Both the position numbers and the translations under genes were made by a program. The notes below the pieces were generated by a model, which saw only the letters and a program-made list of their open reading frames with translations, did no database searches and had not been told where the DNA came from. 37,013 nucleotides of DNA from NCBI GenBank assembly GCA_016214325.1, contig JACROS010000043.1:1-37013 (forward strand), given 5' to 3'. This stretch comes from Candidatus Omnitrophota bacterium. GTDB taxonomy: Bacteria > Omnitrophota > Gorgyraeia > Gygaellales > Profunditerraquicolaceae. Positions within the stretch are counted from its first letter, which is position 1. Each line of letters opens with the position of its first letter. Positions 19,649 to 35,361 of the stretch are shown here, piece by piece.

Positions 19649-20944
19649 ATGAAAAGTGCTGTAAGATTTTTATTAGGATTAATTATCAGTCTAGTTCTGT
19701 CAGCGCAAGGGATTTGTGCTGATGATCTGCTTAGCTGGCAGGATTGTTTAAAAAAAAAAAAAAAAAACAATCCTGATTTAATCTCTTCTGTTGAGAATAT
19801 CAGCCAGCAGAAATCAGCAAAGACAATTACAGCAAGTTCTCTCTATCCTCAAATTAATGCTGATCTTAATGTCTCTACATCTAAAACAGGAAAATCTTCT
19901 TCTACGTCTACAGGAAGCTCGTCAGCTACTTCAGGTGATTCATATTCTTATGGCGCTACAGGTTCACAGTTAATTTTTGATGGCTTTAAAACTCTTAATG
20001 AAGTTAATACAGCTAAACAAAATATTGAGGTTGCAAAACAAAGTTACCGTTTTGCTTCTTCAGAGATAAGGCTAAGTTTGCGTAATGCCTTTGTTAAATT
20101 GCTAGAGGCACAGGAATTAGTCAGGGTTGTTGAGGAAATTATAAAAATACGGCGGGATAATTTAGAATTAATTACTATGCGTTATTATTCAGGGCTTGAA
20201 CATAAAGGTGCTTTGTTGACTGCTCAGGCTAATCTTAGCCAGGCTAATTTTGAACTTTCTCAGGCAAAGAGAAATGTTGAGTTTTATCAGCGTCAGTTAA
20301 CTAAAGAAATGGGGCGTAAGGAATTTGTTCCTATGATTGTTAAGGGAGAGTTTGTTGTGCGTGATACTGCTAAGCCTAAACCGGATTTTGCATTGATAGT
20401 TAAAAATAATCCTTCAGTATTGCAGGTGTCTGCGCAAAAGGCAGCTGCATTTTATAGCCTCAGGTCGGCTTACGGTAATTTCAGCCCCCAGCTTATTGGT
20501 TCTGCTTCTGTGGATAAGGCTAATTCTCAATGGCCGCCAAATACCAATCAGTGGAGCGCCGGCCTTGGTTTAAGTATGCCTATATTTGAAGGAGGCTTAA
20601 GGTTGGCTCAAGTATCTCAGGCAAAATCAGTCTTGAAGCAATCAGGAGAAAATGAAAGAAGCGCTAAGGATACAGCAATAGTAGCTCTTGAGCAGTCTTG
20701 GGTTTTGTTACAGGATGGCCTGGAATTTGTTAATGTGCAAAAACAAATATTGAATGCAACAGAAGAGCGCTCAAAGATTGCAGAGGCGCAGTATTCAATT
20801 GGCTTTATGTCTTTTGATAATTGGATCATTATTGAAGATGATTTGGTGAAGGCAAAAAAGAATTATTTATTGGCTCAGGCAGATGCGCTTTTGGCTGAGG
20901 CAAATTGGATTCAGGCGAAAGGAGAAACTCTTGAATATGAATAA
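19649..20944 (+). CDS. TolC-family outer membrane efflux protein
   Basis: Outer-membrane/periplasmic channel of a tripartite pump. A signal peptide (MKSAVRFLLGLIISLVLSAQGICA) is followed by the family start LLSWQDCLKKKKKNNPDLISS. Two repeats of long helices follow (SSEIRLSLRNAFVKLLEAQELVRVV, LTAQANLSQANFELSQAKRNVEFYQRQL, then KDTAIVALEQSWVLLQDGLEFV and ILNATEERSKIAEAQYSIG), with SLYPQINADLNVS strands and a Ser/Thr-rich loop (SKTGKSSSTSTGSSSATSG). The KKKKK is encoded by an 18-A run, prone to slippage. The adaptor gene overlaps its last 8 bases. Confidence 0.9.
   Translation: MKSAVRFLLGLIISLVLSAQGICADDLLSWQDCLKKKKKNNPDLISSVENISQQKSAKTITASSLYPQINADLNVSTSKTGKSSSTSTGSSSATSGDSYSYGATGSQLIFDGFKTLNEVNTAKQNIEVAKQSYRFASSEIRLSLRNAFVKLLEAQELVRVVEEIIKIRRDNLELITMRYYSGLEHKGALLTAQANLSQANFELSQAKRNVEFYQRQLTKEMGRKEFVPMIVKGEFVVRDTAKPKPDFALIVKNNPSVLQVSAQKAAAFYSLRSAYGNFSPQLIGSASVDKANSQWPPNTNQWSAGLGLSMPIFEGGLRLAQVSQAKSVLKQSGENERSAKDTAIVALEQSWVLLQDGLEFVNVQKQILNATEERSKIAEAQYSIGFMSFDNWIIIEDDLVKAKKNYLLAQADALLAEANWIQAKGETLEYE
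19741..19773 (+). repeat. 18-A homopolymer within the tolC-like gene, inside a perfect inverted repeat
   Basis: A run of 18 A (19750-19767) lies near codons 34-40. It is bracketed by GGATTGTTT (19741-19749) and AAACAATCC (19765-19773), exact reverse complements. Gain or loss of one A shifts the frame early in the protein. Confidence 0.9.
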
Positions 20945-21914
20945 AAAGATTAAATTGATTTTTATTCTTTTGGTTGTATTTGCAGCGGGTTGGTTTTTGT
21001 TTTCAATGTTGCATCGGACAAAAAAACCCGATGAGGTTTATAAAGAGATTAAGCCTTTTTCTGGTAGTGTACAGAGTACATTTTCTACTGTTGGTTCGGT
21101 ATTGCCGAAAAACAGGCTGGAGATTAAGCCTCCGGTAGGAGGAAGAGTTGAAGAAATTTTGGTTAAAGAAGGGCAAAAGGTAAAAACAGGAGAAACCTTA
21201 GCTTGGATGAGTTCTACTGAGCGGGCAGCTCTGTTGGATGCAGCGCGCGGACAGGGAGAAAAATCTTTAGAATACTGGAAAGATGTTTATAAGGGGATTC
21301 CTTTAATTTCTCCGATAGACGGCGAAGTGATCGTTTCAAAGACACAGCCGGGCCAGACAGTAGTTACTAGTGATGCAGTGATTGTTCTTTCGGATAAGTT
21401 GATTGTTAGAGCACAGGTGGATGAAACCGATATCGGTAAAGTAAAACTTGGCCAACAGGTGGTTATGTCACTTGATGCCTATCCGCTTGAAAAAATAAAG
21501 GCTGTTGTGGACCATATTTATTATGAATCAAAAACAGTAAATAATGTTACCACTTATGAAGTTGATTTACTCCCGGAAGAGATTCCGGAATTCTTTCGCT
21601 CTGGGATGAATGCTACTATTTATTTTGTTAATAAGTCAGTTGAGCAAGCGCTGCTTATTCCTGGTGAGGCGATGGTAAAGGAAAATGGCAAAGAATATGT
21701 GCTTATTAAAGAATCTAATGGGAATGCGCCAGTCAAGCGTCTAATAGAGACGGGCATTTCCGACGAAAAGAATATTCAGGTTATCTCTGGAATAAATCCT
21801 GATGATATTGTTTTGGTTAAGGAGAAGAAATATTCGCTTCCTAAGGGTAGTTCTGCCTCTAGCCCATTTACTCCGTTTGGTGCAAAGAAAAAGGAAGATA
21901 AGCCGAAAAACTAA
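20937..21914 (+). CDS. HlyD/MacA-type periplasmic adaptor of a tripartite efflux pump
   Basis: Links the MacB-like transporter encoded next to the TolC-like channel. An N-terminal anchor (IKLIFILLVVFAAGWFLFSML) is followed by a lipoyl/barrel-sandwich half (LEIKPPVGGRVEEILVKEGQKVKTGETLAWM). A very short linking helix replaces the usual long hairpin, then comes the second half (ISPIDGEVIVSKTQPGQTVVT), a beta-barrel (LIVRAQVDETDIGKVKLGQQV) and a membrane-proximal domain ending in a Lys-rich tail. I start at the ATG at 20937; the track's 20883 lies inside tolC. It overlaps tolC by 8 bases, and GGAG lies 10-12 nt upstream. Confidence 0.88.
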   Translation: MNKKIKLIFILLVVFAAGWFLFSMLHRTKKPDEVYKEIKPFSGSVQSTFSTVGSVLPKNRLEIKPPVGGRVEEILVKEGQKVKTGETLAWMSSTERAALLDAARGQGEKSLEYWKDVYKGIPLISPIDGEVIVSKTQPGQTVVTSDAVIVLSDKLIVRAQVDETDIGKVKLGQQVVMSLDAYPLEKIKAVVDHIYYESKTVNNVTTYEVDLLPEEIPEFFRSGMNATIYFVNKSVEQALLIPGEAMVKENGKEYVLIKESNGNAPVKRLIETGISDEKNIQVISGINPDDIVLVKEKKYSLPKGSSASSPFTPFGAKKKEDKPKN

Positions 21915-21915
21915 T

Positions 21916-23874
21916 ATGATTGAACTAAAAGAAGTATTTAAGACCTATAAAATGGGCGACACCGAAGTGCGCGCCCTTAATAATGTGTCATTAAAGATTT
22001 CTGCAGGTGAATTTGTAGCGATTATGGGGCCGTCGGGATCCGGTAAATCAACATTAATGCATGTGCTTGGTTTATTGGATCAGCCGGATGCAGGCAATTA
22101 TGTTTTAGACAAAAGAGAGATTAATGGATTAAGCGAAGAGAAGCTGGCTATTATTAGAAATCAGTTGATTGGTTTTGTTTTTCAGCAGTTTCATTTGTTG
22201 GCTCGGTTGACGGCGCTTGATAATGCAGAATTGCCTTTAATCTACGCCGGAAAAAGGCATCTTAGAGAAAAAGCGCGTCAGAAGATTGAGCTTGTTGGGT
22301 TAAAAGATCGTATATCGCACCGTCCTAATGAGCTTTCTGGTGGGCAGCAGCAGCGTGTTGCTATTGCCAGAGCATTGGTTAATGATCCTCCGATTATCCT
22401 TGCGGATGAACCGACGGGAAATCTTGATTCTAAAAGCAAAGAAGAAATTTTAAATATTCTAAAGCAGCTCAATCAAGAAGGTAAAACTTTAATTATTGTT
22501 ACGCATGAAAGAGAAATTGCCGAGCATGCAAAAAGAATTATTTTTATGCGCGATGGAGAAATTGTTTCTGATGAAAAAAATAATGTTAATCCGTTGATAG
22601 TAAGCCCGGATATTCCCGATGGCGTTGAGTTTGAGAATAAATCTACGGCATCTACAGGAGCAAAGTTTATTGATTATTTGCGCGAGGCATGTTTTGCAAT
22701 ATGGTCGCATAAATTAAGGTCATTTTTATCAATCTTGGGTATATTAATTGGAGTAGGCGCTGTAATTGCTATGCTTGCTTTGGGCCAGGGAGCAAAAGCG
22801 GCAATTGAGAAGCAGTTAACAGGGCTTGGTTCAAATCTTTTAGTAGTTAGAGCCGGATCACCTAAATTGCATGGAGTTGCACTTGAATCAGGCACAGTTA
22901 CCCGTTTTACTTTTCAGGATGTGGATGCCTTGCGTAATTTATCAGATGAAATTGTCCGGGTGAGCCCGTCAGTATCCGGGCGGGGGCAGATTGTTTATTT
23001 CAATAAAAACTGGAATACTCAGGTTGAAGGCGTTGATGTTGATTATGAATATATGCGTTCATTTACCCCGGAAGTGGGCAGGTTTTTTAGTGCATCAGAA
23101 GTGAGGATGCGTGAAAAAGTAGCATTGCTAGGCACAACTGTGGCAAGGGAGCTTTTTGGAGAAGCTAACCCAATAGGAGAAGTAATTAAAATTAATTTAA
23201 TTAATTTTCAGGTAATTGGGGTATTACCTGAAAAGGGGGCCACTACATTTCGCGATCAAGATGATGTTATTCTTATCCCGGTGACAACCGCGATGTTTAG
23301 AGTATTTGGCAAACAGTATGTTGATGCTATTTTTATTGAATGCCGCGATCCCCAGGCAATGGATGCTCTTTCAGATTCAATCTCAGCAATGATTATAAAA
23401 TTACACCGGTTAAGAAAAGATAATGAGGATTCTTTTGAAATTCGTAACATGGCGGATATTAAGAAAACTCTTGAGGCTACAACAAAAACCATGTCTTTAT
23501 TGCTGGGTGCAATTGCAGCAATTTCTCTTTTTGTAGGCGGAATTGGTATTATGAATATTATGCTTGTTTCTGTTACAGAGCGCACGAGAGAAATTGGCCT
23601 GCGTAAAGCAATTGGGGCAAATAATCGGGATATTTTGGTGCAATTTCTAATTGAAGCTGTGTTAATGTCAGTTTTTGGAGGCGTGGGAGGAATTTTATTA
23701 GGAGCCGGCGTATCGGCATTGGTTACTACTATTGCCGGATGGAGCATGATTGTTTCATTATCTTCTGTGATTCTTGCGACGGTATTTTCACTTATTGTGG
23801 GTGTTGTGTTTGGGCTCTGGCCTGCAAAGCAGGCATCCAGGCTTGATCCTATTGAGGCATTGAGATATGAATAA
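21916..23874 (+). CDS. macB: MacB-type ABC transporter (ATPase fused to FtsX-like permease)
   Basis: The 652-residue half-transporter has an N-terminal ATPase (residues 1-225) with GPSGSGKST (38-46), Q-loop [15 protein letters not shown], signature [25 protein letters not shown] and THERE. The permease begins [32 protein letters not shown] (about 255-285). It has a periplasmic MacB-PCD domain and three C-terminal helices with the FtsX motif [21 protein letters not shown]. MacB proteins export macrolides, peptides or toxins by mechanotransmission through MacA and TolC. The start is moved from 21802 to the ATG at 21916, one base after the adaptor stop. Its place directly upstream of the peptide genes suggests it may export their product (inference). 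Confidence 0.92.
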
Positions 23875-23876
23875 GA

Positions 23877-24731
23877 ATGATTGAATTAAGGCTAAGCTTG
23901 AGGAAAAATAATTCTGGTGCCCTGGAGCTTTTGAATTCTGTGCTTTTAAATTGCGGTGTTAAGCAGGAGAGAATAGTGGAGAAAAAACATAAGAATAGAA
24001 TTTATCTTTCAGTTTTTCCTGAAACAACGAAACAGGCCGTCAGCTTACAGAGAAAAATCTCTCTTTCCGGCTTAAAAGGTATTTATTTAAAGAAAATCCT
24101 GCTCAAGGACTCTGATTGGAAGACGCGTTGGAAGAAATATTTTAAGCCTTTTAATATTACCAGAAATATTAGGGTTATTCCTTTGGGAAGAAGAGATTTT
24201 GATAAGAATAAAACACTTAAAAGAATTCATATTGATACAGTTGTTGCTTTTGGAACAGGGACTCATCCGACGACCAAGATGGTGGCGCAGTTTATTACTT
24301 CTAAGAAAGGAAAGTTTTTTAGTTTTCTTGATATTGGCACAGGCTCAGGGATTCTTTCGGTGGTTGCTTCTTGTTGTGGGGCAGGTGAAATATTTGCTAT
24401 TGATTTTGACGAGCAGGCAATTAAAACCGCAAAAAACAATTTCTTCCTAAATTGCATTGAGCCGGATTATATTAAGGCAATTGATTTTGGCAACTTTAAC
24501 CCAAAAAGAAAATTTGATTTTATCGCCGCAAATTTGCTCACAGATGATTTATTAAGATTTAAAACAAAGCTGGTGGCTTTATTGAATCCTGGAGGGTATT
24601 TGGCTGTTTCCGGGATTCATAAAGATAATTACAAACGCTTTAGGGAATATTTTAAAAGCAGACAAATTTTATTCTTGAATGTTAATAAAATTAAAGGTTG
24701 GTATGCTTGCTTGCTGAGAAAAGAAAAGTAA
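23877..24731 (+). CDS. prmA: Ribosomal protein L11 methyltransferase-like protein
   Basis: SAM-dependent methyltransferase of the PrmA family, which trimethylates ribosomal protein L11. The substrate domain is N-terminal. The catalytic domain shows the hallmark VAFGTGTHPTTKM, then FLDIGTGSGILSVVASCCGA (motif I), IFAIDFDEQAIKTAKNN (motif II) and DFIAANLLTDDLL (motif IV region). The length of 284 is close to the usual 290-310. It starts 2 bases after macB, and the next gene starts 3 bases after its stop. Given the peptide genes around it, modification of another protein or peptide is conceivable, but the motifs are those of ordinary PrmA. Confidence 0.85.
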   Translation: MIELRLSLRKNNSGALELLNSVLLNCGVKQERIVEKKHKNRIYLSVFPETTKQAVSLQRKISLSGLKGIYLKKILLKDSDWKTRWKKYFKPFNITRNIRVIPLGRRDFDKNKTLKRIHIDTVVAFGTGTHPTTKMVAQFITSKKGKFFSFLDIGTGSGILSVVASCCGAGEIFAIDFDEQAIKTAKNNFFLNCIEPDYIKAIDFGNFNPKRKFDFIAANLLTDDLLRFKTKLVALLNPGGYLAVSGIHKDNYKRFREYFKSRQILFLNVNKIKGWYACLLRKEK

Positions 24732-24734
24732 ATT

Positions 24735-25814
24735 TTGATGAAAAAAAATGTATTTAATTTTGATTCAAGTGATCTTAGTGATAACAAAAAAGATATTTGT
24801 GCTATTTTAGGCTCAGGAAATATCAAGCTAACTTCTTTTTTAAACTGGCCCGAAATGTTAAGAGTTGCCAGGCACTCGAGTGTTTCCCCTAGTTTATATT
24901 TGGCTGCTAAGCATAATGAGAAAAAGTTTTGTGTCCCTGACGAAATATATAAGGAATTAAAACTTGATTATACTATTTGTAGTTTTTTAAATCAGATTAA
25001 GTTAGAAGATTTTGAAAGAGTCTCGTTTGAATTTAAAAAAACAAATATCAGCTTTATTTTGCTCAAAGGAATTCATCTCTTGAATACGGCATTTAGTTTT
25101 GATTCCGGGGCGCGAGCAATAGGTGATATTGATATTTTGGTTAAAAAAGATGATTTAGTGAGTGCTTCTAGAATTATAACTGTTCTTGGTTACAAGTATT
25201 TTGAATCATTAACAAATGCTCGTCCTACACGGATGTTTATTAAAAAAAGTGAAACTGGGATTGAGTTAGCTGTTCATTTACATACACACATAGTTAATCT
25301 TTCGGAAAAATTTATGGATAAGGATTTGACGAGTATTAATCTTGATGATATTTTTAGCTCGGCCAATGTTGCAGCGCCATTATTTGGTAAAGATGCTGGT
25401 TTATTGATGAAAAATGAACACATGCTAATAAGCCTGTGCGAGCATGGGTTTAGGCATGGTTTTGCCCGCTTGGGCTTACTTTATGATATTCATAAATTTA
25501 TTGGCTACGCAGGGAATAACTTGGATTGGCAGGAAGTTAAGAGAGTATCTGTTAGCTGGTCAATTAAGGTTCCTGTTTGTCAAGGGCTTTATCTTTCAAG
25601 ACTATTCTTTGGTACAAATATAGAAGCTGATTTTTTGAGTCAGCTTTGTCCGAAGGGGTTTTCTTTGCTGGAGCAGTATCTTCTAGGAAGAGTTGCTAAA
25701 CAGGATTATCTTAAAGAGTATGAATATCCATTTTTATATTTTTTACAGAAGAAACCTTTGTTTTCCAAGACACGTTTTTTAAAAACTTGCTTTAGCAATA
25801 AGTTTAGAATATAA
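24735..25814 (+). CDS. Nucleotidyltransferase-fold protein (PF14907-like)
   Basis: The core ILLKGIHLLNTAF...GARAIGDIDILVKKDDLVSASRII (about residues 115-150) fits the uncharacterised nucleotidyltransferase family. DIDILV is the metal-binding D-x-D, followed later by IELAVHLHTHI. Proteins of this family often lie beside PqqD-like, HPr-kinase-like and radical SAM genes in peptide or polysaccharide clusters. A nucleotidyltransferase-family protein has been linked to modification of a phosphorylated lasso peptide C-terminus (pseudomycoidin). The gene starts 3 bases after prmA and ends 8 bases before the radical SAM gene. Substrate not identifiable from sequence. Confidence 0.75.
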   Translation: MMKKNVFNFDSSDLSDNKKDICAILGSGNIKLTSFLNWPEMLRVARHSSVSPSLYLAAKHNEKKFCVPDEIYKELKLDYTICSFLNQIKLEDFERVSFEFKKTNISFILLKGIHLLNTAFSFDSGARAIGDIDILVKKDDLVSASRIITVLGYKYFESLTNARPTRMFIKKSETGIELAVHLHTHIVNLSEKFMDKDLTSINLDDIFSSANVAAPLFGKDAGLLMKNEHMLISLCEHGFRHGFARLGLLYDIHKFIGYAGNNLDWQEVKRVSVSWSIKVPVCQGLYLSRLFFGTNIEADFLSQLCPKGFSLLEQYLLGRVAKQDYLKEYEYPFLYFLQKKPLFSKTRFLKTCFSNKFRI

Positions 25815-25815
25815 T
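25787..25815 (+). promoter_or_regulatory. Internal promoter for the radical SAM/precursor genes
   Basis: TTGCTT (25787-25792), 17-nt spacer, TATAAT (25810-25815), lying in the end of the nucleotidyltransferase gene. The -10 box ends 7 nt before the radical SAM ATG, which has no Shine-Dalgarno sequence, so a leaderless transcript is predicted. Confidence 0.6.
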
Positions 25816-25822
25816 ACTTTTA

Positions 25823-26893
25823 ATGAATAGCTCAACTGAACTTTTCGATGCTATAGTTGCAAAAATTGAGCATAGCCGTATACCGCTTAATGCTCATATT
25901 GACCTTACCTATCGTTGTAATCTGAATTGTGTTCATTGCTATTGTCAAAATCTCTCGCCTAGTTTCTCAAGGGGCCAACCAGAAATGAGTGATAGTGAAA
26001 TATTAAAACTTATTGATGAGCTTGCTGAAATTGGTTCGCTTTTTCTTACCTTGTCCGGAGGAGAAGTATTGCTTCATCCATCTTTTTTTAAAATTGCCGA
26101 ATATGCAAGGAAGCGCAATTTTTCTGTTACAGTGCTTACTAACGGAATGTTGGTTGATAAAAATATGGCACAGAGATTAGCGGGGCTGTCTTTAAAAAGT
26201 GTTGAGTTGAGTATTTATGGTGCCAGTGCTACAGTGCATGATTCTATTACTGGTAAAATAGGATCTTTTGAAAAACTTAAACAGGCAGTTGGTTTCTTAA
26301 AAGATGCTGGTTTGTGGGTGATGTTGAAGTCGGTAATTATGAAGCAAAATATGCATGAGGCCCACCAGATAGAAGATGCAGCCTTAGCTATGGGTGCAGA
26401 TAAGTATATTTCTACTTTGGAAGTTACTGTTAAAAATGATGGTTCAAATGATCCCAAAAGATTTCAGTTATCTGAACAAGATTTACTGAAACTTCTCATT
26501 GATGATCCAGATCCGCTACCTGGGGCAGATCAGGCATTAGGGCAAAAAGCAGAGGATAGGCCGATATGCGGTTGCGGCATATTAGGGACATATATTTCTC
26601 CTTATGGAGAAGTTTATCCTTGTATCCAGCTTTTGGTTTCAATGGGAAATATCCGCGAGAAAAACTTTGCCCAAATCTGGCGCTCATCATCAGAAATTCG
26701 GGATAAACTCGATTCTATTCGCACATACGCGGATATGCCTTATTGCAGGGATTGTAAATTTGTGGGTGTATGTAAGAAATGTTTAGGGACAGTGTATTTG
26801 GAGACTGGCGATTTGTGCGCTTGCCATCAGACGCAGCGTGCCATACTGGAAAAAGGCTATCAAGTATATTGTAAACAAGGAGGGGAGAGATGA
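25823..26893 (+). CDS. Radical SAM/SPASM peptide-modifying enzyme
   Basis: Radical SAM enzyme with the cluster motif CNLNCVHC (Cys32, Cys36, Cys39) followed by YCQN, and the family segments FLTLSGGEVLLHPSF and VTVLTNGMLV. The C-terminal SPASM-like region (about residues 245-345) has ICGCGILGTYISPYGEVYPC, a MGNIREKNFAQIW segment and a Cys-rich end (YCRDCKFVGVCKKCLG...LCACH) able to bind auxiliary Fe-S clusters. SPASM enzymes install thioether, C-C or other bonds on ribosomal peptides. No N-terminal RRE is fused; a separate PqqD-like gene lies downstream. Its stop overlaps the ATG of the 53-residue peptide (ATGA), strong evidence that this peptide is its substrate. Confidence 0.88.
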   Translation: MNSSTELFDAIVAKIEHSRIPLNAHIDLTYRCNLNCVHCYCQNLSPSFSRGQPEMSDSEILKLIDELAEIGSLFLTLSGGEVLLHPSFFKIAEYARKRNFSVTVLTNGMLVDKNMAQRLAGLSLKSVELSIYGASATVHDSITGKIGSFEKLKQAVGFLKDAGLWVMLKSVIMKQNMHEAHQIEDAALAMGADKYISTLEVTVKNDGSNDPKRFQLSEQDLLKLLIDDPDPLPGADQALGQKAEDRPICGCGILGTYISPYGEVYPCIQLLVSMGNIREKNFAQIWRSSSEIRDKLDSIRTYADMPYCRDCKFVGVCKKCLGTVYLETGDLCACHQTQRAILEKGYQVYCKQGGER

Positions 26894-27051
26894 GTGATAA
26901 GAAAAAGAAATATGTGAAACCGCAGTTAAAAAAGCTGAATATGCTGGAGGTAAGCGCAGCTGTTTGTTGCCGGAGGAATGGAGCTGTTCCTGATTGTAGT
27001 ATGGTTAATAAAACTGGCGGTAAAAGTAGTAAATATAATACTCAGTCGTAA
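26890..27051 (+). CDS. Putative RiPP precursor peptide, 53 residues
   Basis: Not in the ORF track because it is short. GGAGGGG lies just before the ATG, which overlaps the radical SAM stop. The Lys-rich leader MSDKKKKYVKPQLKKLNMLEVSA contains Y8-x-x-P11-x-L13, the motif that PqqD-like recognition elements bind in lasso-peptide leaders. The core side is AAVCCRRNGAVPDCSMVNKT...KYNTQS, with Cys26, Cys27 and Cys36, and Ser as the very last residue. Position, strong ribosome site, leader-core layout and Cys content make a precursor the best reading. The cleavage site could lie near VSAA-V. No homologue can be checked here. Confidence 0.75.
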   Translation: MSDKKKKYVKPQLKKLNMLEVSAAVCCRRNGAVPDCSMVNKTGGKSSKYNTQS

Positions 27052-27059
27052 TTTCTTCA

Positions 27060-27470
27060 GTGCAAGAATTTAAGATTACAATACAGGGTAAAAGCATGAT
27101 GCCTTTCTTGCTTCCCAGGTCTTTTGCAATAGTAAGGTTTTGTGGAGTTGATCAGCTTTGTTTGGGAGATATTGCAGTTTTTAAAGAAAAAGGCTTGTTT
27201 ATTTGTCATCGGGTAATAAAAATATTACAGCGTAATAGTCAGGTTATCTTGAGGACAAAACCAGACATTTCTTTCTTAGCAGATCCATTGATAAATAATA
27301 GCTTAATTGTAGGCAAAATAATCTCTGTGCAATATGGAAAGGTCTATTTTAAAATTGATTCTTTTCCAATAAGGATTTTTGGTTATTTACTTGGCTATAG
27401 CATTCCTTTTTTAGCCCGGGTTTATTTTAAAACAAAGAAGATTCTTTATGCTTTCAACAATCGGAATTAA
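27060..27470 (+). CDS. Small S24/S26-family (signal peptidase-like) peptidase
   Basis: The 136-residue protein starts at GTG 27060, 8 bases after the peptide stop. IQGKSMMPFLLP carries the catalytic Ser motif (S-M-x-P) and LCLGDIAVF is the conserved G-D box. FICHRVIKI has His-Arg where bacterial signal peptidase I has Lys-Arg, as in SipW/ER-type enzymes using a Ser-His pair. TKPDISFLADPL corresponds to the TKGDxN...D box. The C-terminus has a hydrophobic stretch (IFGYLLGYSIPFLARVYF) that could associate with the membrane. In this cluster it is a candidate leader peptidase (inference). Its end overlaps the kinase-like gene by 23 bases. Confidence 0.75.
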   Translation: MQEFKITIQGKSMMPFLLPRSFAIVRFCGVDQLCLGDIAVFKEKGLFICHRVIKILQRNSQVILRTKPDISFLADPLINNSLIVGKIISVQYGKVYFKIDSFPIRIFGYLLGYSIPFLARVYFKTKKILYAFNNRN

Positions 27471-28248
27471 TTTCGCAGGAATTCAGTATAAAATAGAAGG
27501 TATTGATCTTAAAGAAGAAACCGGTCAATTTTTAGATGGCTTTATGGGTTTTTCTGACTCAGATGTTGTTTATACAGTTAAGATCAATAGGAATGCTTCG
27601 TGGCAGATTAAAGATTCAGAGTTTCAAACCTTGCCAGAATGGAATAAAGATACGCTTAAAATTGGGTTATCTTTTTGTGATGTAGAAATTGATTTTGTGC
27701 GTCGAAATGTGTTTGTTTTAACAGGAAAATATATCGGCTTGTTTGGTTTGCTTCGGTTTTTGTCTGCAATGCATCTTGTTCGTAATAATGGTTTTCTATT
27801 GCATGCTAGTTCTTTAACTACTGTTAAAGGTGTTTATGTATTTAGCGGAGTTTCAGAAAGTGGCAAAACTACTATTGCTCGGATGGCAGAGGAAAATATG
27901 CGTGTTTTAACCGATGAGACAACGGCAATCTTTAAAAATCAATCTGTATTTGAAGCGCATGCTACTCCTTTTGCTGGAGAATTAGGTAATCTTGGATTTA
28001 ATTCTGGTTCAAAATTAAAGGCTTTATTTTTTATTAGAAAAGATAATTCTTTTTGGCATAGACGCTTAGAAAAGCAAGAAGTTGTGAAGGAGCTTTTTAG
28101 AAATGCAATTTTTACTGCGCTAGATCAGAAAATAATTGAAACTGTTTTTAATACTTTTATTTCATTTGCCGAAAACGTGTCTTGTTACGAACTTGGATTT
28201 AACCGTTCAAAAGATTTATGGAGGTATATTGATGGAATTGCTGGATAA
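27448..28248 (+). CDS. HPr-kinase-like (HprK-related) P-loop kinase
   Basis: The 266-residue protein has an N-terminal beta-rich domain. The kinase core is GFLLHASSL (conserved His), YVFSGVSESGKTTIARM (Walker A GVSESGKTT, about residue 133) and MRVLTDETTAIF (Walker B-like). This is the layout of HprK-related kinases, not true HPr kinase: the HPrK K/R loop signature is not seen and no HPr gene is nearby. Homologues in lasso clusters (paeninodin type) phosphorylate the C-terminal Ser of the precursor. The peptide encoded here also ends in Ser. It overlaps the peptidase gene upstream and the pqqD-like gene downstream, so all three are tightly coupled. Confidence 0.78.
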   Translation: MLSTIGINFAGIQYKIEGIDLKEETGQFLDGFMGFSDSDVVYTVKINRNASWQIKDSEFQTLPEWNKDTLKIGLSFCDVEIDFVRRNVFVLTGKYIGLFGLLRFLSAMHLVRNNGFLLHASSLTTVKGVYVFSGVSESGKTTIARMAEENMRVLTDETTAIFKNQSVFEAHATPFAGELGNLGFNSGSKLKALFFIRKDNSFWHRRLEKQEVVKELFRNAIFTALDQKIIETVFNTFISFAENVSCYELGFNRSKDLWRYIDGIAG

Positions 28249-28510
28249 GAAATTCTTACGCAACAAGAATGTCGCTTGGCGAATTATTGATGGTGAAGCA
28301 TTGTTGGTGCATCCTTCTACAAACATTATTTCTCCGCTTGATGAAATATGTACGCGTATTTGGGAACTGATAGATGGCAAGCTTACTGGTAGAGATATTG
28401 CTGGTATTGTTGAAAAAGAGTTTACAGAGAACCTTTCTGTTATTGAAACTGATTTGAATGCATTCCTTGATGAACTCCTTCAAAATAATCTCATTATTTT
28501 ATGCGATTAA
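28232..28510 (+). CDS. PqqD-family peptide-binding (RRE) protein
   Basis: The 92-residue PqqD-like protein fits a winged-helix RiPP recognition element. Typical features are a basic N-terminus, AWRIIDGEALLVHPSTNIISPLDEICTRIWELIDGKLTGRDIAGIVEKEF, then a helix ending DLNAFLDELLQNNLI. I start at the ATG at 28232, preceded by a strong GGAGG, rather than at 28136 inside the kinase gene. It overlaps the kinase end by 17 bases and the methyltransferase start by 10. Its likely job is to hold the leader (YxxPxL motif) for the radical SAM enzyme and other tailoring enzymes. Confidence 0.87.
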   Translation: MELLDKKFLRNKNVAWRIIDGEALLVHPSTNIISPLDEICTRIWELIDGKLTGRDIAGIVEKEFTENLSVIETDLNAFLDELLQNNLIILCD

Positions 28511-29319
28511 TTTCTTGTATTTCATTTTCTATTAGTAGGGGTCTTTATTTTATCTCAGAAAGATTATATAGGCTTATAGCTATGTTTGATGCTTTTAATG
28601 TAGCTGTTTTGACGCCAGAAGAGATGGCGGATATAGGGCGTCGAGCATATAATCGACTCTCTGAACAGTTTGGTTCAGAAGAAACGATTAGAACAGGCCT
28701 GGTGGATTGGGAAAAGGAAGCAGTTGCTCGTTTTTGCCAAAAGAAAAGTTCGTTTCTTGTGCTTGGTTGTGGTGGAGGCAGAGAAGTAGTTGCTTTAGCA
28801 AAAATGGGATTTTCTGTTGTGGGGATAGATTCATCTTTGGGGATGCTGGAGATTGGCCGTGTTAATGCTCAGCGTGAAAAAGTAGCTGTAGATTTTAGAG
28901 AAGGAGATTTTTTGTCGCCTGATACAGGTAAAGACAAATTTTCTTACTGTCTTTTGTCTTGTGTTATGTATAGTTCTGTTCCCTCTCGCCAGATGCGCGT
29001 AGCCATGCTTAGGCAGATTAGGAATGTTCTTGAGGATAAAGGAATTTTGATTATTCATTTTTTGCTTGATTCTAAGAAAGTTAATAGCCGTTGGCACACA
29101 GCAAAGAAGAAAATAGCTTCTTTTTTTCGCGGGAATGTTACTTATTCTCCCGGAGATACATTTTCTACGTCTTTGCATTTCATGAGGTATTTTCCAAGTG
29201 ATGAAGAAGTTGTTTTAGAAGCTAAGGAAGCCGGTTTTCTTGTGCAGGCTAAGGGTGTTTTTCCGGAATCAGAATATATGGTGCTTTCACATGAAAGAAG
29301 TTTTCTAATAGGAAGCTAA
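28501..29319 (+). CDS. Class I SAM-dependent methyltransferase
   Basis: The 272-residue methyltransferase has SFLVLGCGGGREVVALAKMGFSVVGIDSSLGML (motif I and post-I, about residues 79-118) and DFREGDFLSP. A C-terminal region is rich in aromatic and basic residues (HFMRYFPSDEEVVLEAKEAGFLV). The first ~27 residues form a hydrophobic, amphipathic extension. A second ATG (residue 28, MFDAFNVAVL) could be the true start, but the track ATG overlaps the pqqD-like stop in the manner of this operon. In this context it may methylate the peptide or its modified C-terminus (inference). Its 3' end overlaps the convergent ABC permease gene by 15 bases. Confidence 0.8.
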   Translation: MRLISCISFSISRGLYFISERLYRLIAMFDAFNVAVLTPEEMADIGRRAYNRLSEQFGSEETIRTGLVDWEKEAVARFCQKKSSFLVLGCGGGREVVALAKMGFSVVGIDSSLGMLEIGRVNAQREKVAVDFREGDFLSPDTGKDKFSYCLLSCVMYSSVPSRQMRVAMLRQIRNVLEDKGILIIHFLLDSKKVNSRWHTAKKKIASFFRGNVTYSPGDTFSTSLHFMRYFPSDEEVVLEAKEAGFLVQAKGVFPESEYMVLSHERSFLIGS

Positions 29320-30108
29320 TGTTCCTTGTTTTTTTGCATAATTAATTGCCCAACCGAAGAATTTTATGCCTGTCGGAAGCAGTACTGTAGAAAATATCAC
29401 AAGAATAGTTAATTCAGTTTTAAGCTGATAGATGGTGTAGCCGCGGTATACTGCAAGCTCCATTGCCTTTACTGCATAGGTCACTGGAAAAAGCATGGAG
29501 ATTATTTGTAACCATCCTGGAAGCACAGAGATCGGAAAGAAAATTCCTCCGACGATTCCTTCAAAAGCTCCAATCACCCAAGCTAAAGGGTTTCCTCTTT
29601 TAAAAATCACTACAAAACTTGCTGAAATTATTCCAAGGCCTGTGAATGAAAGAATGCTTAATATAAGCACTAATGCTACTGAGGCAAGATTGGCTGAGCC
29701 TAAATTAACCCTAAAAACAAATAAGCCAAGGATGGCATAAATAGCAAAGTCAACACTGGCTACGATAAAGTTCCAGATGCCTAGTCCTGCTAATATAATC
29801 TTGGTTTTGGTTGGAGTTAAAATGATTGCTTCTAATGTTCCTTCCATTTGTTCGTCGGCAATTTTCTGAGGAAATGAATTTATTCCGACAGAAATATAGC
29901 CAAAAAGGCCGGTACTTACTAATACATAAGAAAAATAATCTACTCCAAATAATTCTAGGTGAGTTGTGATTTTCTGTCCGAAGAGTTTGTTAATAAAAAA
30001 ATAGCTTAAGAGTCCTAAAAAGATACTGGCAATATTTAAGGCTAAGGGAAATTGATATGATGATTCAACTAAAAATGTTTTTTTTAAGAAGGCGATAATT
30101 TTTTTCAT
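29305..30108 (-). CDS. ABC-2 type transporter permease
   Basis: The 267-residue membrane protein has six predicted helices (including IASIFLGLLSYFFI, YVLVSTGLFGYISVGI, FIVASVDFAIYAILGLFVF, LVLILSILSFTGLGIISASFVVIF and WVIGAFEGIVGGIFFPISVLP). EGTLEAIILTPT and PISVLPGWLQIISMLFPVTYAV are typical of ABC-2 permeases for drugs, polysaccharides or peptides. It starts 2 bases after the ATPase gene, so they form a pair. Convergent with the peptide cluster, it could provide export or self-protection, but could also serve the polysaccharide locus to its right. Confidence 0.87.
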   Translation of the reverse strand: MKKIIAFLKKTFLVESSYQFPLALNIASIFLGLLSYFFINKLFGQKITTHLELFGVDYFSYVLVSTGLFGYISVGINSFPQKIADEQMEGTLEAIILTPTKTKIILAGLGIWNFIVASVDFAIYAILGLFVFRVNLGSANLASVALVLILSILSFTGLGIISASFVVIFKRGNPLAWVIGAFEGIVGGIFFPISVLPGWLQIISMLFPVTYAVKAMELAVYRGYTIYQLKTELTILVIFSTVLLPTGIKFFGWAINYAKKQGTLASY

Positions 30109-30110
30109 AT

Positions 30111-30893
30111 TTATTGGTTTTCTAACGCTATTTTTTCATATGTTTCTTTTAAAGAATTAAATTCAGCTTTCAACGTAGATTTAGTTAGTGTCTCGCGCAA
30201 TCGGCCATTTTTTAATATAATTGCTTTGTCGCAGAAATTAGATATTTCTTCTAAGTGGTGCGTGGTAAAAATTATTGTTTTGTTTCTTTTGGTGGCTAAT
30301 TCGTCAAGGACAAATTGCATAAACCGTTGTGCTGAAAGGTAGTCGAGGCTCTTCGTTGGTTCATCTAACAGGAGTAGCTCTGGATCGTGTGCTAGGGCTC
30401 TAATTAATGATATGGCCTGTTTCATTCCAGCTGAATAACTGTCAAATCTTTTGTTTAGGTCTAAAAATCTAAATAATTCTGAAAGCTCATTTGCTTTTTT
30501 GAAAGCTGTTTTGGAATCAATGTTGTGCAGTGCCATAAAGAATTCTAAATTCTGTTTTCCCGTTAGTCTCCAGTAAAAACCGCGTTCTTGAAGAGAAGAA
30601 AATCCTATGAGTGAACGAATATTAAGATTGTCCTTTTCAATGTATTTACCTGCAATGCTTATGGTGCCTGAGTCGGGAAATAAAAGAGTGGCAATAATTT
30701 TTAATAACGTGGTTTTTCCGGCGCCATTGGGGCCAAGAATGCCGAGAATTTTTCCTTTCTCTAAAGAAAAAGAAAGGTCTGTAATGGCATGAGTAGATAA
30801 TTTATTTTGAAATTTAAGGCTTACTATTTGAGAAAAGGATAGGGATGGGGTGAAATTCTTAGAGATATGATTTAATTCTACAAAATTTTCCAT
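30111..30893 (-). CDS. ABC transporter ATP-binding protein (ABC-2 partner)
   Basis: The 260-residue ATPase has GILGPNGAGKTTLLKI (Walker A), signature YSAGMKQAISLIRAL, LLLDEPTKSLD (Walker B) and TTHHLEE (H-loop). The N-terminus has an extra stretch (SLSFSQIVSLKFQNKLSTHAITDL) as in exporters of the NatA/YhaQ or polysaccharide type. It is transcribed from its own promoter (30902-30930, minus) divergent from the PIG-L gene. The ATG lies 8 nt after the -10 box without a Shine-Dalgarno sequence. Confidence 0.9.
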   Translation of the reverse strand: MENFVELNHISKNFTPSLSFSQIVSLKFQNKLSTHAITDLSFSLEKGKILGILGPNGAGKTTLLKIIATLLFPDSGTISIAGKYIEKDNLNIRSLIGFSSLQERGFYWRLTGKQNLEFFMALHNIDSKTAFKKANELSELFRFLDLNKRFDSYSAGMKQAISLIRALAHDPELLLLDEPTKSLDYLSAQRFMQFVLDELATKRNKTIIFTTHHLEEISNFCDKAIILKNGRLRETLTKSTLKAEFNSLKETYEKIALENQ

Positions 30894-31040: not shown

Positions 31041-31670
31041 TTGAATATATTGGCGATAGGTGCGCACCCGGATGACATAGAGTTTGGCTGTGGGGCTACG
31101 CTTTTGCAATTCTCCCGTCGCGGGCATAAAGTATTTTTTTTCGTGGCTACTGAGGGAGAGGTTGGCGCAAAAGAAGGCTTAAGAAGAAAAGAAGAGATGA
31201 ATGCGATGCGTTTTCTGGGCGCTAAAAAAGTATTGTGGGGTGGATGTGTTGACACTAATGTTCCCACTAGTAAAGAGTTGATTGATGAAATTGAGGCAGT
31301 GATTAAAGAAGTGAAGCCTGATATTGTGTTTTTTAATTTTTCTGATGATACTCATCAGGACCATCGCGCTGTGGCAAATTGTGCGCTTTCTGCAACTAGA
31401 TATGTGAAAAAAGCTCTCTTTTATGAAGTTCCCACCACTAGGAATTTTGAGCCGGATGTTTTTATGGATGCAAGCAGTGTAATGCAGAAAAAGGTTTCTT
31501 TGCTTAAGTTGCATAAATCACAAATCAAAAGGACTCGTGTGCCAAAGCTGACCATCTTAGAGAGCGCCTTGGCCTGCGCGATGTTCAGGGGCTATCAAGC
31601 TAGAGTAAAATTTGCCGAGGGGTTTAAGGCAGTGCGTTTTATGCTTGATTTTGAATCTGACAAATTATGA
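31041..31670 (+). CDS. PIG-L family LmbE-like deacetylase
   Basis: Zinc-dependent N-deacetylase of the PIG-L/LmbE fold, often acting on N-acetylglucosaminyl compounds. LAIGAHPDDIEFGCGATL has the metal-binding A-H-P-D-D, followed by VFFFVATEGE and FFNFSDDTHQDHRAVANCAL (third metal His). The start is TTG, supported by GGAGGG 4 nt upstream and the lack of any ATG before the AHPDD motif. The product is 209 residues. The WecA-like gene overlaps its stop by 4 bases (ATGA), so it probably edits the lipid-linked or nucleotide sugar used in this locus (inference). Confidence 0.9.
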   Translation: MNILAIGAHPDDIEFGCGATLLQFSRRGHKVFFFVATEGEVGAKEGLRRKEEMNAMRFLGAKKVLWGGCVDTNVPTSKELIDEIEAVIKEVKPDIVFFNFSDDTHQDHRAVANCALSATRYVKKALFYEVPTTRNFEPDVFMDASSVMQKKVSLLKLHKSQIKRTRVPKLTILESALACAMFRGYQARVKFAEGFKAVRFMLDFESDKL

Positions 31671-32692
31671 GGCTGCGCTTAATTCTTCTGTCCTCGTTTA
31701 TAATTAGCTTTGTTTTAACTCCCTTTCTTATAAAGTTATCCCGCAGATTAAAAGTTCTTGATTATCCAGCAGAAAGAAAAATTCATAATGTTCCCATGCC
31801 TCGGTTGGGAGGAGTAGCAGTTTATTTGGCCACCGTGGTATCCTTATCTTTTGGCATTTTCTCTTCAGCTAAATTAACCGCAATATTTCTAGGGGGGACA
31901 TTGATTTTTGTTCTGGGGCTAGTGGATGACATTAAGCATATTTCTGCTTCTTCAAGATTACTTGGACAAATTATCGCTTCAGCAATTTTAATAAGTTCCG
32001 GTATTTATATCGATGTTTTTCCTGCTGCCTTTAACTTTTTTAATTATTTTATTACTGTAGTTTGGCTAGTGGGTATTACTAATGCTGTAAATTACTTAGA
32101 TGGGGTAGATGGCTTGGCTACTTTGCTGGCGATTTCAATATTGGCATGTTTTACTTATATAGGTTTTATATCTAATCAGTTCTGGTTATTAAATTTAATT
32201 GTTGCTTTGTCTGCAGCATTGCTAGGTTTCTTGAGATACAATTTCCCTAAAGCAAGAATTTTTCTTGGAGATTGCGGCAGTAATTTTATTGGGTTTATTT
32301 TAGGGGCTGTTGGAATTATGGGCACATGGGCAGAGGATAGTGTTGTAAAAATATTTGTGCCGGTTTTTATACTGGGAGTTCCGATTTTTGATATGTGTTT
32401 TACTACTGTAATGCGCATTAGAGAAGATAAGATACATGATGTTATTGAATGGCTCGAATATGCAGGAAAGGATCATTTTCACCACCGCTTGATGAATTTA
32501 GGGTTAAATAGAGTCGGAGTTGTGTGTTTAATTTGTGCTTCAAGTATAATCTTGGGTATTTCTGGTATAGTTTTGTATAATTCTGAAAGAACCGATGCTT
32601 ATTTTATGTTGGTACAGTCGTTTTTTATCTTCGTTATTATTTCTATCCTCATGATTATGGGCAGTAGGGTTTCCTGTAAAAATCAGAGTTAA
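31667..32692 (+). CDS. WecA/MraY-type undecaprenyl-phosphate sugar-1-phosphate transferase
   Basis: Inner-membrane phosphoglycosyl transferase that starts lipid-linked glycan assembly by loading a HexNAc-1-phosphate on undecaprenyl phosphate. About ten hydrophobic helices are visible. Signature loops are ERKIHNVPMPRLGGVAVYLA, FVLGLVDDIKHISA (Asp-Asp), NYLDGVDGLA, KARIFLGDCGSNFIGF and the cytoplasmic GKDHFHHRLMNLG, all as in the WecA/TagO group rather than MraY. The length of 341 residues is typical. It likely supplies the first sugar of the polysaccharide exported by the Wza/Wzz system downstream. Confidence 0.9.
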   Translation: MRLRLILLSSFIISFVLTPFLIKLSRRLKVLDYPAERKIHNVPMPRLGGVAVYLATVVSLSFGIFSSAKLTAIFLGGTLIFVLGLVDDIKHISASSRLLGQIIASAILISSGIYIDVFPAAFNFFNYFITVVWLVGITNAVNYLDGVDGLATLLAISILACFTYIGFISNQFWLLNLIVALSAALLGFLRYNFPKARIFLGDCGSNFIGFILGAVGIMGTWAEDSVVKIFVPVFILGVPIFDMCFTTVMRIREDKIHDVIEWLEYAGKDHFHHRLMNLGLNRVGVVCLICASSIILGISGIVLYNSERTDAYFMLVQSFFIFVIISILMIMGSRVSCKNQS

Positions 32693-32712
32693 AAAGAAAG
32701 TGGTTTTTGTTT

Positions 32713-33393
32713 ATGATTGTAAGTGTTCATCAGCCCCAGTATATTCCTTGGCTTGGCTATTTTGATAAAATAAAAAAAAGCGATTGTTTTGTTTTTCTTG
32801 ATGATGTGCAATATAAGAAAAGAGAGTATGAGAACCGCAATAAAATCAAGGCTTCTGCTGGGGCGCATTGGCTGACTGTCCCGGTAATTACTAAAGGCGC
32901 TTATTTTCAGAAAATAAGCGATGTTTTAATTGATAATGCTCAAAGATGGCAGGAGAAACATTACAAAGCTTTTGAGTTTAATTATGGCAAGGCCGCATAC
33001 TTTAAGAATTATTTACCATTTTTAGAAGAAATTTATCTTCAGAAGAAATGGGTAAACTTAGTTGATTTAAACATTTTTATTATAAAATTTGTATTGAAAG
33101 AATTAGGAATTGGTACTAAGATATACTTAGAATCTCAGGTTCAGGCTGATGGCCAGGCTACTGACAGGATTGTAAATATTTGCCGTAAATTAACTTGTGA
33201 TTCGTATCTATCCGGCATAGGAGGAACAGCTTATCTAAAGGAAGAAAAGTTTTCTTCTGCCGGAATAAAATTGATTTATCAGGATTTTAAGCATCCGGAA
33301 TATCCTCAGCAATTCGGGGAATTTGAAAGTAATTTGTCTGTGATGGATTTGCTTTTAAATTGCGGCCCGCAAGCAAGTAAATATTTTGCCTAA
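32713..33393 (+). CDS. WbqC family protein
   Basis: WbqC-like proteins occur in O-antigen and capsule loci; their reaction is mostly undefined, and some help make amino-sugar amides. The family start MIVSVHQPQYIPWLGYFDKIKKSD is clear, with FLDDVQYKKREYENRNKIK, LTVPV, CDSYLSGIGGTAYL and IKLIYQDFKHPEYPQQFGEFESNLSVMDLLLNCG following. I start at the ATG at 32713; the track's TTG at 32707 adds two residues only. The product is 226 residues. It lies 20 bases after the WecA-like gene, and the ATPase gene begins 5 bases after its stop. Confidence 0.88.
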   Translation: MIVSVHQPQYIPWLGYFDKIKKSDCFVFLDDVQYKKREYENRNKIKASAGAHWLTVPVITKGAYFQKISDVLIDNAQRWQEKHYKAFEFNYGKAAYFKNYLPFLEEIYLQKKWVNLVDLNIFIIKFVLKELGIGTKIYLESQVQADGQATDRIVNICRKLTCDSYLSGIGGTAYLKEEKFSSAGIKLIYQDFKHPEYPQQFGEFESNLSVMDLLLNCGPQASKYFA

Positions 33394-33398
33394 AAATT

Positions 33399-34211
33399 AT
33401 GTATGAAAGTTACTGGAATTTAAAAGATAAACCTTTCGAAAACACTCCTGATCCTCGTTTTTTCTTTTTAAGTCGGCAGCATAATGAAATCCTCTCTCGC
33501 TTTATGTATGTAATTGAGCAGCGTAAACAAATGGCCATGTTTACAGGAGAATATGGAGCCGGCAAGACTCTTGTGAACATGATGATTCTTTCAAAATATA
33601 AAGAAAAGTTAGATTATAAAATTATTCTGATTATAAATCCTTGTCTTAGTTTGATTGATTTCTTACGGGAGATACATTATCAACTAAAGAATGATCCTGC
33701 AATAGGGATGTCAAAATTTGAAATTTTAAATTCTCTCAGGCAGGGGTTATTAGAGAACCCTCATTTGAGAAAGATTATTATTATTGATGAATCGCAGATG
33801 ATAGAAGATTTAAACATCTTTGAAGAGCTTAGACTGCTTTCTAATATTACTTTTGAGCATCAGTTTATGTCAAGCATTATTCTCGTCGGACAGCCGCAGT
33901 TAAAAGACAAGGCTTATCAGTTTCCACAATTACGTCAAAGATTGGCCCTTGTGCATCATCTTAACCATCTTTCTGAGGAAGAGACAAGAGAGTATGTCGA
34001 TTACAGGCTGAGAGTGGCGGGTGCAAAATTTACAATTTTTGATGATGAAACTCTTAGTGTTATTTTTGAAGTAACTAAAGGAGTGCCCCGTCTTGTTAAC
34101 ACTTTATGCGATATAAGCCTTGCGATTGGAAAGGCTCAGAGTAGAACGACTATTAATAAAGAAATTATTGATCAGGTTGCTTCTGAAATAATAAGAGAAA
34201 TCAATGCTTGA
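33399..34211 (+). CDS. ExeA/XrtA-associated type AAA ATPase
   Basis: The 270-residue AAA+ ATPase begins YWNLKDKPFENTPDPRFFFLSRQHNEIL, the hallmark of ExeA/GspA-like ATPases and of those in exosortase-linked exopolysaccharide loci. Walker A is GEYGAGKTLVN (an altered P-loop that keeps GKT), Walker B is KIIIIDESQMI, and the sensor region is LVGQPQLKDK...LRQRL. The C-terminal domain helps select partners (KGVPRLVNTLCDISL). No peptidoglycan-binding domain is fused, unlike GspA. Co-transcription with WecA-, HD-GYP- and Wza-like genes points to assembly or control of surface polysaccharide. Confidence 0.87.
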   Translation: MYESYWNLKDKPFENTPDPRFFFLSRQHNEILSRFMYVIEQRKQMAMFTGEYGAGKTLVNMMILSKYKEKLDYKIILIINPCLSLIDFLREIHYQLKNDPAIGMSKFEILNSLRQGLLENPHLRKIIIIDESQMIEDLNIFEELRLLSNITFEHQFMSSIILVGQPQLKDKAYQFPQLRQRLALVHHLNHLSEEETREYVDYRLRVAGAKFTIFDDETLSVIFEVTKGVPRLVNTLCDISLAIGKAQSRTTINKEIIDQVASEIIREINA

Positions 34212-35331
34212 TTTTTCAAATCTTTATAATTCCCAAAACAATGAAAAAGATAATTTGAAGGATGCGAAAACAGATAAGCCTTTAGATAATCTTCCGCAAG
34301 AGCCTGTTAAATCTCCAGGAGAATTTTCATCTTCAGGAAATCAAGCCAGCCAAGGTATTTCATTTTCTGAAATAAATTTCAGCCAGGAAGACACCACTTT
34401 TAACGAGAACGTTTTTCAAAACTCAAGGCAGTTTTATCTTGAATGCCTTGCAATGGCAGAGGATGCGATAAATAATCTTCAGAAGGCAAAGGGAGTAGAT
34501 TTTCAAGCTATTCACAAAAAGATTCTTGAACTAACTGAGAATATTTCTTTTGGTGATAAGTATTTCTTGGTTTTAATGAATGAGGTTAAAAATAACAATT
34601 TTCTTGCTGTGGAATCAGTAAATGTAGCAATTCTTGCCCTTGAGATAGGAATCCAGCTTGGATTTAATAAATCAAAGCTGGAGAAACTGGCTCTTGCTGG
34701 TTTTTTTCATGATATGGGTTTAGGGAAAATGATAAATCTGGTTAATTCTACGAGGTCGCTTACTTTTAATGAAGTAAATCAGATAAAAGGGCATCCTCGC
34801 GTAATTATGGATTTACTCAACAATGAAGCAGGAATTTCTGAGGAAGTAATTAACGGAATTTTACATCATCATGAAAAACTGGATGGCTCAGGTTATCCGA
34901 ACGGATTAAAAAAAGGGCAAATTAGCGAATTTGGCCAGATAATTTCGGTAGCTGATATTTTTGAATCATTGACTCATCCTCGTCCATACCGCAATCAGGT
35001 AAATTTCTTGGAGGCATTTAAGACTATTTTTCAGTCCAAGCAGGAAAGAATAAATCCTAAGTATGTTGATGCTTTGATCAGAGGTGTTGGATTTTATCCG
35101 CTTGGAAGCTGGGTGAAGTTGGATGATGGGCATATCGGCAAGGTTGTATTTGTTGATAAGAAATTCCCCTTGAGGCCGGTTATTCTGATTTTATTTTATT
35201 CAACAGGAAAAACTCTTGATGTTCCTAAGAGGATAGATTTAAGAAGACACGCTCAGTCTAATATTGTGACAATTATTTCTTCTGATGAGGTTAACTCTCT
35301 TGCCGTTATAAAGAAAGAATTAGCAAATTAA
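34204..35331 (+). CDS. HD-GYP domain protein (putative cyclic-di-GMP phosphodiesterase)
   Basis: The first ~70 residues are polar and low-complexity (NSQNNEKDNLKDAKTDKPLDNL). The HD-GYP domain follows at about 125-300: VNVAILALEIG, GFFHDMGLGKM (HD), KGHPRVIMDLL, HHHEKLDGSGYPNGLKKGQIS (HH and GYP), and VADIFESLTHPRPYR. The final ~70 residues contain a small beta domain (GSWVKLDDGHIGKVVFVDKK...) common after HD-GYP domains. Catalytic His/Asp residues are intact, so it should break down cyclic di-GMP, a usual controller of polysaccharide output. The start overlaps the ATPase gene by 8 bases. Confidence 0.87.
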   Translation: MLDFSNLYNSQNNEKDNLKDAKTDKPLDNLPQEPVKSPGEFSSSGNQASQGISFSEINFSQEDTTFNENVFQNSRQFYLECLAMAEDAINNLQKAKGVDFQAIHKKILELTENISFGDKYFLVLMNEVKNNNFLAVESVNVAILALEIGIQLGFNKSKLEKLALAGFFHDMGLGKMINLVNSTRSLTFNEVNQIKGHPRVIMDLLNNEAGISEEVINGILHHHEKLDGSGYPNGLKKGQISEFGQIISVADIFESLTHPRPYRNQVNFLEAFKTIFQSKQERINPKYVDALIRGVGFYPLGSWVKLDDGHIGKVVFVDKKFPLRPVILILFYSTGKTLDVPKRIDLRRHAQSNIVTIISSDEVNSLAVIKKELAN

Positions 35332-35361
35332 TTGTAGTTTTATGTTTTCTGTAAATTATTG

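Follow-up and report, generated by a model that had tools for sequence, protein, structure and literature searches.

A candidate RiPP gene cassette pairing a radical SAM/SPASM enzyme with an HprK-like kinase in an Omnitrophota genome

Gene content and enzymes of the cassette

The DNA analysed here, referred to as the window, is the whole 37,013-nucleotide contig JACROS010000043.1 of a Candidatus Omnitrophota bacterium (assembly GCA_016214325.1), and the subject of this report is a cassette of seven successive forward-strand genes (24738-29319) that very probably directs the synthesis of a ribosomally synthesized and post-translationally modified peptide (RiPP). The genes encode, in order, a nucleotidyltransferase of the NTP_transf_5 family (PF14907; 24738-25814), a radical S-adenosylmethionine (SAM) enzyme with a SPASM domain that is predicted to be a peptide maturase (25823-26893), a 53-residue putative precursor peptide (26890-27051), an S24/S26 peptidase of the SipW/archaeal type that is a probable leader peptidase (27060-27470), an HprK-like kinase with the predicted fold of phosphoenolpyruvate carboxykinase (PEPCK) and HprK (27448-28248), a PqqD-like RiPP recognition element (28232-28510) and a SAM-dependent methyltransferase, probably accessory (28501-29319). 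The ATG of the first gene is at 24738, and an in-frame TTG lies one codon upstream at 24735. All seven open reading frames (ORFs) described in the initial annotation are present, and they are as tightly packed as it claimed: overlaps occur at four of the six junctions (radical SAM/precursor, 4 nt; peptidase/kinase, 23 nt; kinase/PqqD, 17 nt; PqqD/methyltransferase, 10 nt), and the other two are 8-nt gaps.

The family assignments were likewise upheld, by family models for four proteins, by predicted fold for the kinase and by three conserved residues for the peptidase. The first gene product scores 124 bits against PF14907 (cut-off 31.2), its residues Asp130, Asp132 and Asp250 are invariant among 24 homologues, and its predicted structure (predicted local distance difference test score, pLDDT, 88) is similar to the nucleotidyltransferases MenT and ANT(2''). 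The radical SAM enzyme matches PF04055 (88 bits) and the SPASM domain PF13186 (43 bits), and the cysteines of its CxxxCxxC motif and those that bind clusters in the SPASM domain are invariant among 29 homologues. As had been anticipated, the solved structures nearest to its profile are of peptide-modifying enzymes: the closest is the sactipeptide synthase SkfB, and PqqE comes next, ahead of two entries deposited as radical SAM proteins with no further name (5wgg and 5v1q), which we take to be the peptide maturases CteB and SuiB. The PqqD-like protein scores 44 bits against PF05402 (cut-off 23.4) and the methyltransferase 50 bits against PF13649; the methyltransferase is found mainly in the Omnitrophota clade, with orthologues in loci L048, L049, L054, L056 and L057. 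Within the 1.48-Mb assembly there is no second close copy of the radical SAM enzyme, and the PqqD-like protein and the kinase are each the sole member of their kind; further genomic copies are possible because the assembly is 84% complete.

The peptidase scores 18.6 bits against the S24 model, under the cut-off, and its best model is that of the archaeal-type signal peptidase (TIGR02228; 38 bits, E 1.2e-9), for which the cut-off of 52 is missed. Residues Ser12, His50 and Asp69 are conserved among 20 homologues, a set that we take to indicate the Ser/His type of archaeal and SipW signal peptidases. Pfam models give hardly any signal for the kinase, and because a profile search of PDB sequences returned mostly P-loop matches, it was assigned by predicted fold: the model computed from an alignment of 41 rows (pLDDT 92) matches structures of PEPCK and HPr kinase/phosphatase, with VIA Z of 14-15 across about 240 residues of PEPCK. 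His119 and the P-loop residue Lys140 are kept in all 41 homologues, and Asp156 in 36 of them.

Precursor peptides and distribution of the cassette

The precursor ATG, which overlaps the stop codon of the radical SAM gene, is preceded by GGAGG. The initial annotation would have been contradicted by a consistent lack of small Cys-containing peptides next to the radical SAM gene in homologous loci, and such a peptide is present in every locus of the clade to which the window enzyme belongs (12 members, support 98/99) and in most of the wider relatives. All 12 precursors of the clade are 49-55 amino acids long and share a basic start, a YxxP leader, a CC pair plus another Cys and, as their last residue, Ser, with a Glu 6-8 residues ahead of CC. 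In the window, the predicted leader MSDKKKKYVKPQLKKLNMLEVSA (26890-26958) contains the motif YxxPxL, with its Y, P and E columns conserved, and the predicted core AVCCRRNGAVPDCSMVNKTGGKSSKYNTQS (26959-27048) contains Cys26, Cys27, Cys36 and the C-terminal Ser53, which conservation within the clade marks out. The cleavage point was placed provisionally from small residues at positions -3 and -1; a cut after a small residue is proposed because 11 of the 12 precursors carry E(V/A)(G/S)(A/S/T) there (EVSA in the window), the sole exception being ETFV in L056. Wider relatives retain a YxxP or WxxP leader and Cys, and have a variable core. None of 34 precursors matches any NCBIfam model. A small precursor with a conserved leader and a variable core, encoded beside genes for a maturase, a recognition element and a peptidase, is the arrangement by which a RiPP locus is recognized, and every one of these elements is present.

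The C-terminal residue was evaluated without bias by selecting candidate precursors for a leader motif, for Cys, for a low content of Arg and for their position, ignoring the last residue. Ser is C-terminal in 51 of 68 precursors from kinase-bearing loci, versus a Ser frequency of 9.6% across the preceding 14 residues (binomial value 1.7e-44, which ignores relatedness and so is not literal), and the pattern persists across phyla and different cores. A distinct type of precursor, YEKPKMxVKKLxxFFxxC, which does not end in Ser, is found in L058, L154, L159, L161 and L177, where an HprK-like gene is present and no S26 gene lies within the locus stretches examined.

Co-occurrence of the genes in the same phylum, which the initial annotation had suggested as a check, was observed. 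In a set of 384 Omnitrophota genomes, homologues of the radical SAM enzyme (E<=1e-60) occur in 15, and in 14 of the 15 a gene for an HprK homologue lies no more than 10 kb away; in the fifteenth (G162), the contig ends inside the radical SAM gene. A scan of genome contigs found the cassette in at least about 15 phyla, namely Omnitrophota and about 14 others, which among the matches listed include Acidobacteriota, Rokubacteria, Nitrospirota, Lentisphaerota, Chloroflexota, Thermodesulfobacteriota, Verrucomicrobiota, Elusimicrobiota and Aminicenantes. At least 105 non-duplicate loci combine the radical SAM and HprK-like genes; PqqD accompanies them in 98 of 105, the S26-type peptidase in 64 and the nucleotidyltransferase in 63, each fused protein being counted only once. 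Fusions join the peptidase to the kinase (L056), the methyltransferase to the nucleotidyltransferase (L056 and L057) and the peptidase to the nucleotidyltransferase (L064, L072, L085 and others).

On the reverse strand, convergent to the cassette, is a pair of genes (29305-30893) for an ATP-binding cassette (ABC) transporter, consisting of an ABC-2 permease (29305-30108; PF12698 and PF01061) and its partner ATPase (30111-30893; PF00005). The linkage of this transporter to the cassette is real: when the 30 strongest homologues of the permease in the phylum are considered, 25 have an HprK match no more than 10 kb away. Of 56 locus pieces from Omnitrophota, 30 contain the ATPase partner. The stretch immediately upstream of the cassette, on the same strand (19649-24731), carries efflux genes of TolC-like, MacA-like and MacB-like types together with a gene for a PrmA-like methyltransferase. 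No PrmA gene is found beside the cassette in the Omnitrophota locus pieces of relatives, and the matches of MacB homologues in those pieces, being cross-matches among ABC ATPases, were set aside. Following the cassette (31041-36374) is a set of polysaccharide genes, namely PIG-L, GT4/WecA-like, WbqC, AAA_22 ATPase, HD domain and Poly_export genes.

Other loci show variations. Five Omnitrophota loci have, directly upstream of the HprK-like gene or one short gene away, a large reverse-strand gene for a gingipain-family (C25) peptidase (L052:6788-10486, L053:8012-11464, L061:8888-15001, L062:10048-15999 and L063:8346-11405) that has no counterpart in the window; it could process the product or could be unrelated to the cassette. 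Another version of the cassette, in L167, L172, L176 and L179, includes the HprK-like gene and in most cases two radical SAM genes and a fusion or pair of PqqD and radical SAM; L172, L176 and L179 also encode the nucleotidyltransferase, together with a full ABC exporter that is about 585 residues long. In L160 (4688-6907), genes for PqqD, the kinase and the nucleotidyltransferase are grouped, with no radical SAM gene in 11 kb of sequence.

Comparison with lasso peptide clusters and other named systems

Lasso peptide clusters contain several relatives of the cassette proteins. A plasmid locus of Paenibacillus cellulosilyticus (L191) carries a gene for a PF14907 protein (208 bits to PF14907 and 97 bits to the profile of the cassette nucleotidyltransferase), followed in turn by genes for an asparagine-synthase-type cyclase (PF00733), a small Ser-ending precursor and an HprK-like kinase (52 bits to the cassette kinase profile; hhalign 97.7%), and the ORFs downstream, read from the sequence without a family search, look PqqD-like, B2-like and ABC transporter-like. 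Because of these homologues and the Ser-ending precursor, the kinase, the nucleotidyltransferase and the C-terminal Ser are regarded as features that the window shares with lasso clusters. A search of plasmids with the kinase returned no match, and one with the nucleotidyltransferase returned four records, including Priestia and Paenibacillus; the Priestia plasmid record has no lasso genes near the nucleotidyltransferase homologue. The kinase PadeK phosphorylates the C-terminal Ser of a lasso peptide, and PsmN is required for the attachment of hexose to the phospho-Ser (PMC9266682).

The cassette resembles the kinase-bearing lasso clusters of paeninodin and pseudomycoidin in its Ser-ending precursor, discrete PqqD (B1), HprK-like kinase and nucleotidyltransferase, but its core has three Cys, and instead of the cyclase and the B2 protease it has a radical SAM/SPASM enzyme and a peptidase of the S26 type. 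The absence of a lasso cyclase/protease pair from the cassette, as originally reported, was confirmed: PF00733 matches none of the cassette proteins (its matches in this genome are on other contigs), and family scans of the same proteins revealed no transglutaminase-like B2 leader protease domain. The lasso-specific PqqD model NF033536 gives the window protein 23 bits, missing its cut-off of 80.

By content, the nearest named cassette is SynChlorMet (TIGR04248-TIGR04251), which likewise has a PqqD-like protein, the HprK-like ScmC and radical SAM/SPASM proteins, but its cut-offs are widely missed by the window proteins (ScmE 90 of 400 bits, ScmF 84 of 400, ScmD 23 of 100), and the relatives scanned are also under them. 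ScmC is matched by 31 of the 41 kinase homologues at E<=0.001, and the window kinase has no match to it at E<=0.1. Judged by the names of the models, SynChlorMet also differs in having two radical SAM enzymes where the cassette has one, and the nucleotidyltransferase, S26-type peptidase and methyltransferase are additional here. Sactipeptide and ranthipeptide clusters (AlbA, SkfB, StsB, CteB) similarly pair a short precursor that contains Cys with a neighbouring radical SAM enzyme of the SPASM type, but the recognition element of the window is a separate PqqD protein, and the equivalog cut-offs are far from reached by the window enzyme (AlbA 107 of 850 bits, StsB 104 of 625). A kinase, a nucleotidyltransferase and an S26-type peptidase are not known to be part of such clusters. 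The GeoRSP system (TIGR04302 and TIGR04303) also combines PqqD with a radical SAM/SPASM enzyme, and its cut-offs are missed (radical SAM 92 of 400 bits, PqqD 26 of 100), as are those of pyrroloquinoline quinone (PQQ) and mycofactocin synthesis (PqqE 100 of 381, MftC 144 of 265).

The combination had been put forward as possibly new. This is sustained for the set as a whole, which satisfies no NCBIfam cassette equivalog (SynChlorMet, GeoRSP, PQQ or mycofactocin) and of which no published description was found in the open-licence literature, a result that is no proof of absence. It is not sustained for the parts, since lasso clusters also have the kinase, the nucleotidyltransferase and PqqD, and HprK-like, PqqD and radical SAM proteins together also compose SynChlorMet, albeit with its cut-offs unreached. 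The cassette may best be described, from sequence comparison, as a probable RiPP system that brings known enzyme families together in a way not previously described.

Predicted pathway and alternative explanations

The cassette probably encodes a leader-dependent radical SAM RiPP with Cys crosslinks, phosphorylation of the C-terminal Ser, leader cleavage of the S26 type and probable ABC export. That it makes a RiPP by radical SAM modification of a leader-bound precursor is the firmest element and very probable. In the predicted order of steps, the discrete PqqD would bind the basic YxxPx(L/V/I) leader and deliver the precursor to its maturase, the radical SAM/SPASM enzyme. This enzyme would crosslink the CC-x(n)-C core by radical chemistry; the likeliest bonds would be thioethers between Cys and carbon, a tentative choice among the bonds possible. 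The HprK-like kinase is likely to act as its lasso counterparts do and phosphorylate the last Ser of the peptide, and there is a slightly less than even chance that the NTP_transf_5 protein acts on the resulting phosphate, onto which it would put a nucleotidyl or sugar group. The Ser/His S26-type enzyme is favoured as the leader peptidase and would cut past a small residue, 2-4 residues ahead of CC; the methyltransferase may cap a free group; and the convergent ABC-2 pair, with similar confidence to that for the peptidase, would export the product. What the sequences themselves show is the gene set, the active-site residues, the conserved precursor with its C-terminal Ser, the linkage of the genes and the homology to tailoring proteins of lasso clusters; the chemistry and order of the steps, the cleavage site, export and any biological role are predictions.

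Several observations weigh against this interpretation. Seventeen of the 68 precursors lack a C-terminal Ser despite the presence of HprK; these exceptions fall mostly in two radical SAM subclades (L058/L154/L159/L161/L177 and L164-L166), and because most members of both lack the Ser, the kinase may act elsewhere there. The binomial value is overstated because related loci were counted as separate. The automatic search left 21 of 95 loci with no labelled precursor, several of which do hold a clear one. The essential residues of lasso kinases are His-Lys-Asp-Asp (PMC9266682), but the second acidic position is Glu in the window kinase and in 26 of 41 homologues. Finally, the assignments to rare phyla may include contamination because most loci come from metagenome-assembled genomes.

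An unlikely alternative is that the cassette yields a small peptide-derived cofactor, of redox or metal type, like PQQ or mycofactocin, with the kinase, nucleotidyltransferase and S26-type peptidase trimming and activating the remnant. Against the MftC model, the radical SAM enzyme has a good score that spans most of its length, PqqE is its second-nearest solved relative and the system is single-copy, all of which would suit a cofactor; however, the PQQ and mycofactocin cut-offs are missed, an ABC exporter is linked, and the cores vary and contain Cys while keeping a fixed C-terminal Ser, whereas the cores of PQQ and mycofactocin are nearly invariant. Marginally less likely still is that the peptide serves as a surface decoration, joined by the kinase and nucleotidyltransferase to a polysaccharide or other glycan of the cell surface via the phosphate on the C-terminal Ser of the peptide. 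This would fit the hexose transfer for which PsmN is required in lasso peptides (PMC9266682) and the polysaccharide export genes beside the cassette in the window and in Omnitrophota locus pieces (Poly_export in 19 of 56, Wzz in 19 of 56), but 26 of the 56 pieces, many of them short, have no such neighbour. The notion of seven unrelated genes that happen to be adjacent, with a 53-residue ORF that is not a gene, draws on the random occurrence of small ORFs and the weak Pfam matches of the peptidase and kinase, and is refuted by the conservation of the gene set and precursor across the phylum and beyond and by the fusions between the genes.

There is an even chance that the cassette represents an undescribed and widespread class of radical SAM-crosslinked Cys peptides, with a C-terminal Ser that is phosphorylated and then nucleotidylated or glycosylated and a leader that is removed by a signal-peptidase-type enzyme; the tailoring module of lasso peptide tails would then be acting on another scaffold. 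Such peptides would be a concrete candidate product family for the hardly cultured Omnitrophota and for Acidobacteriota. The shared genes suggest that the HprK-like kinase and the PF14907 nucleotidyltransferase constitute a portable module that works on the C-terminal Ser in RiPPs beyond lasso peptides; therefore, a small Ser-ending ORF adjoining an HprK-like gene could be used as a rule for genome mining, and the cassette may offer a route to learning what PF14907 ('uncharacterised nucleotidyltransferase') transfers.

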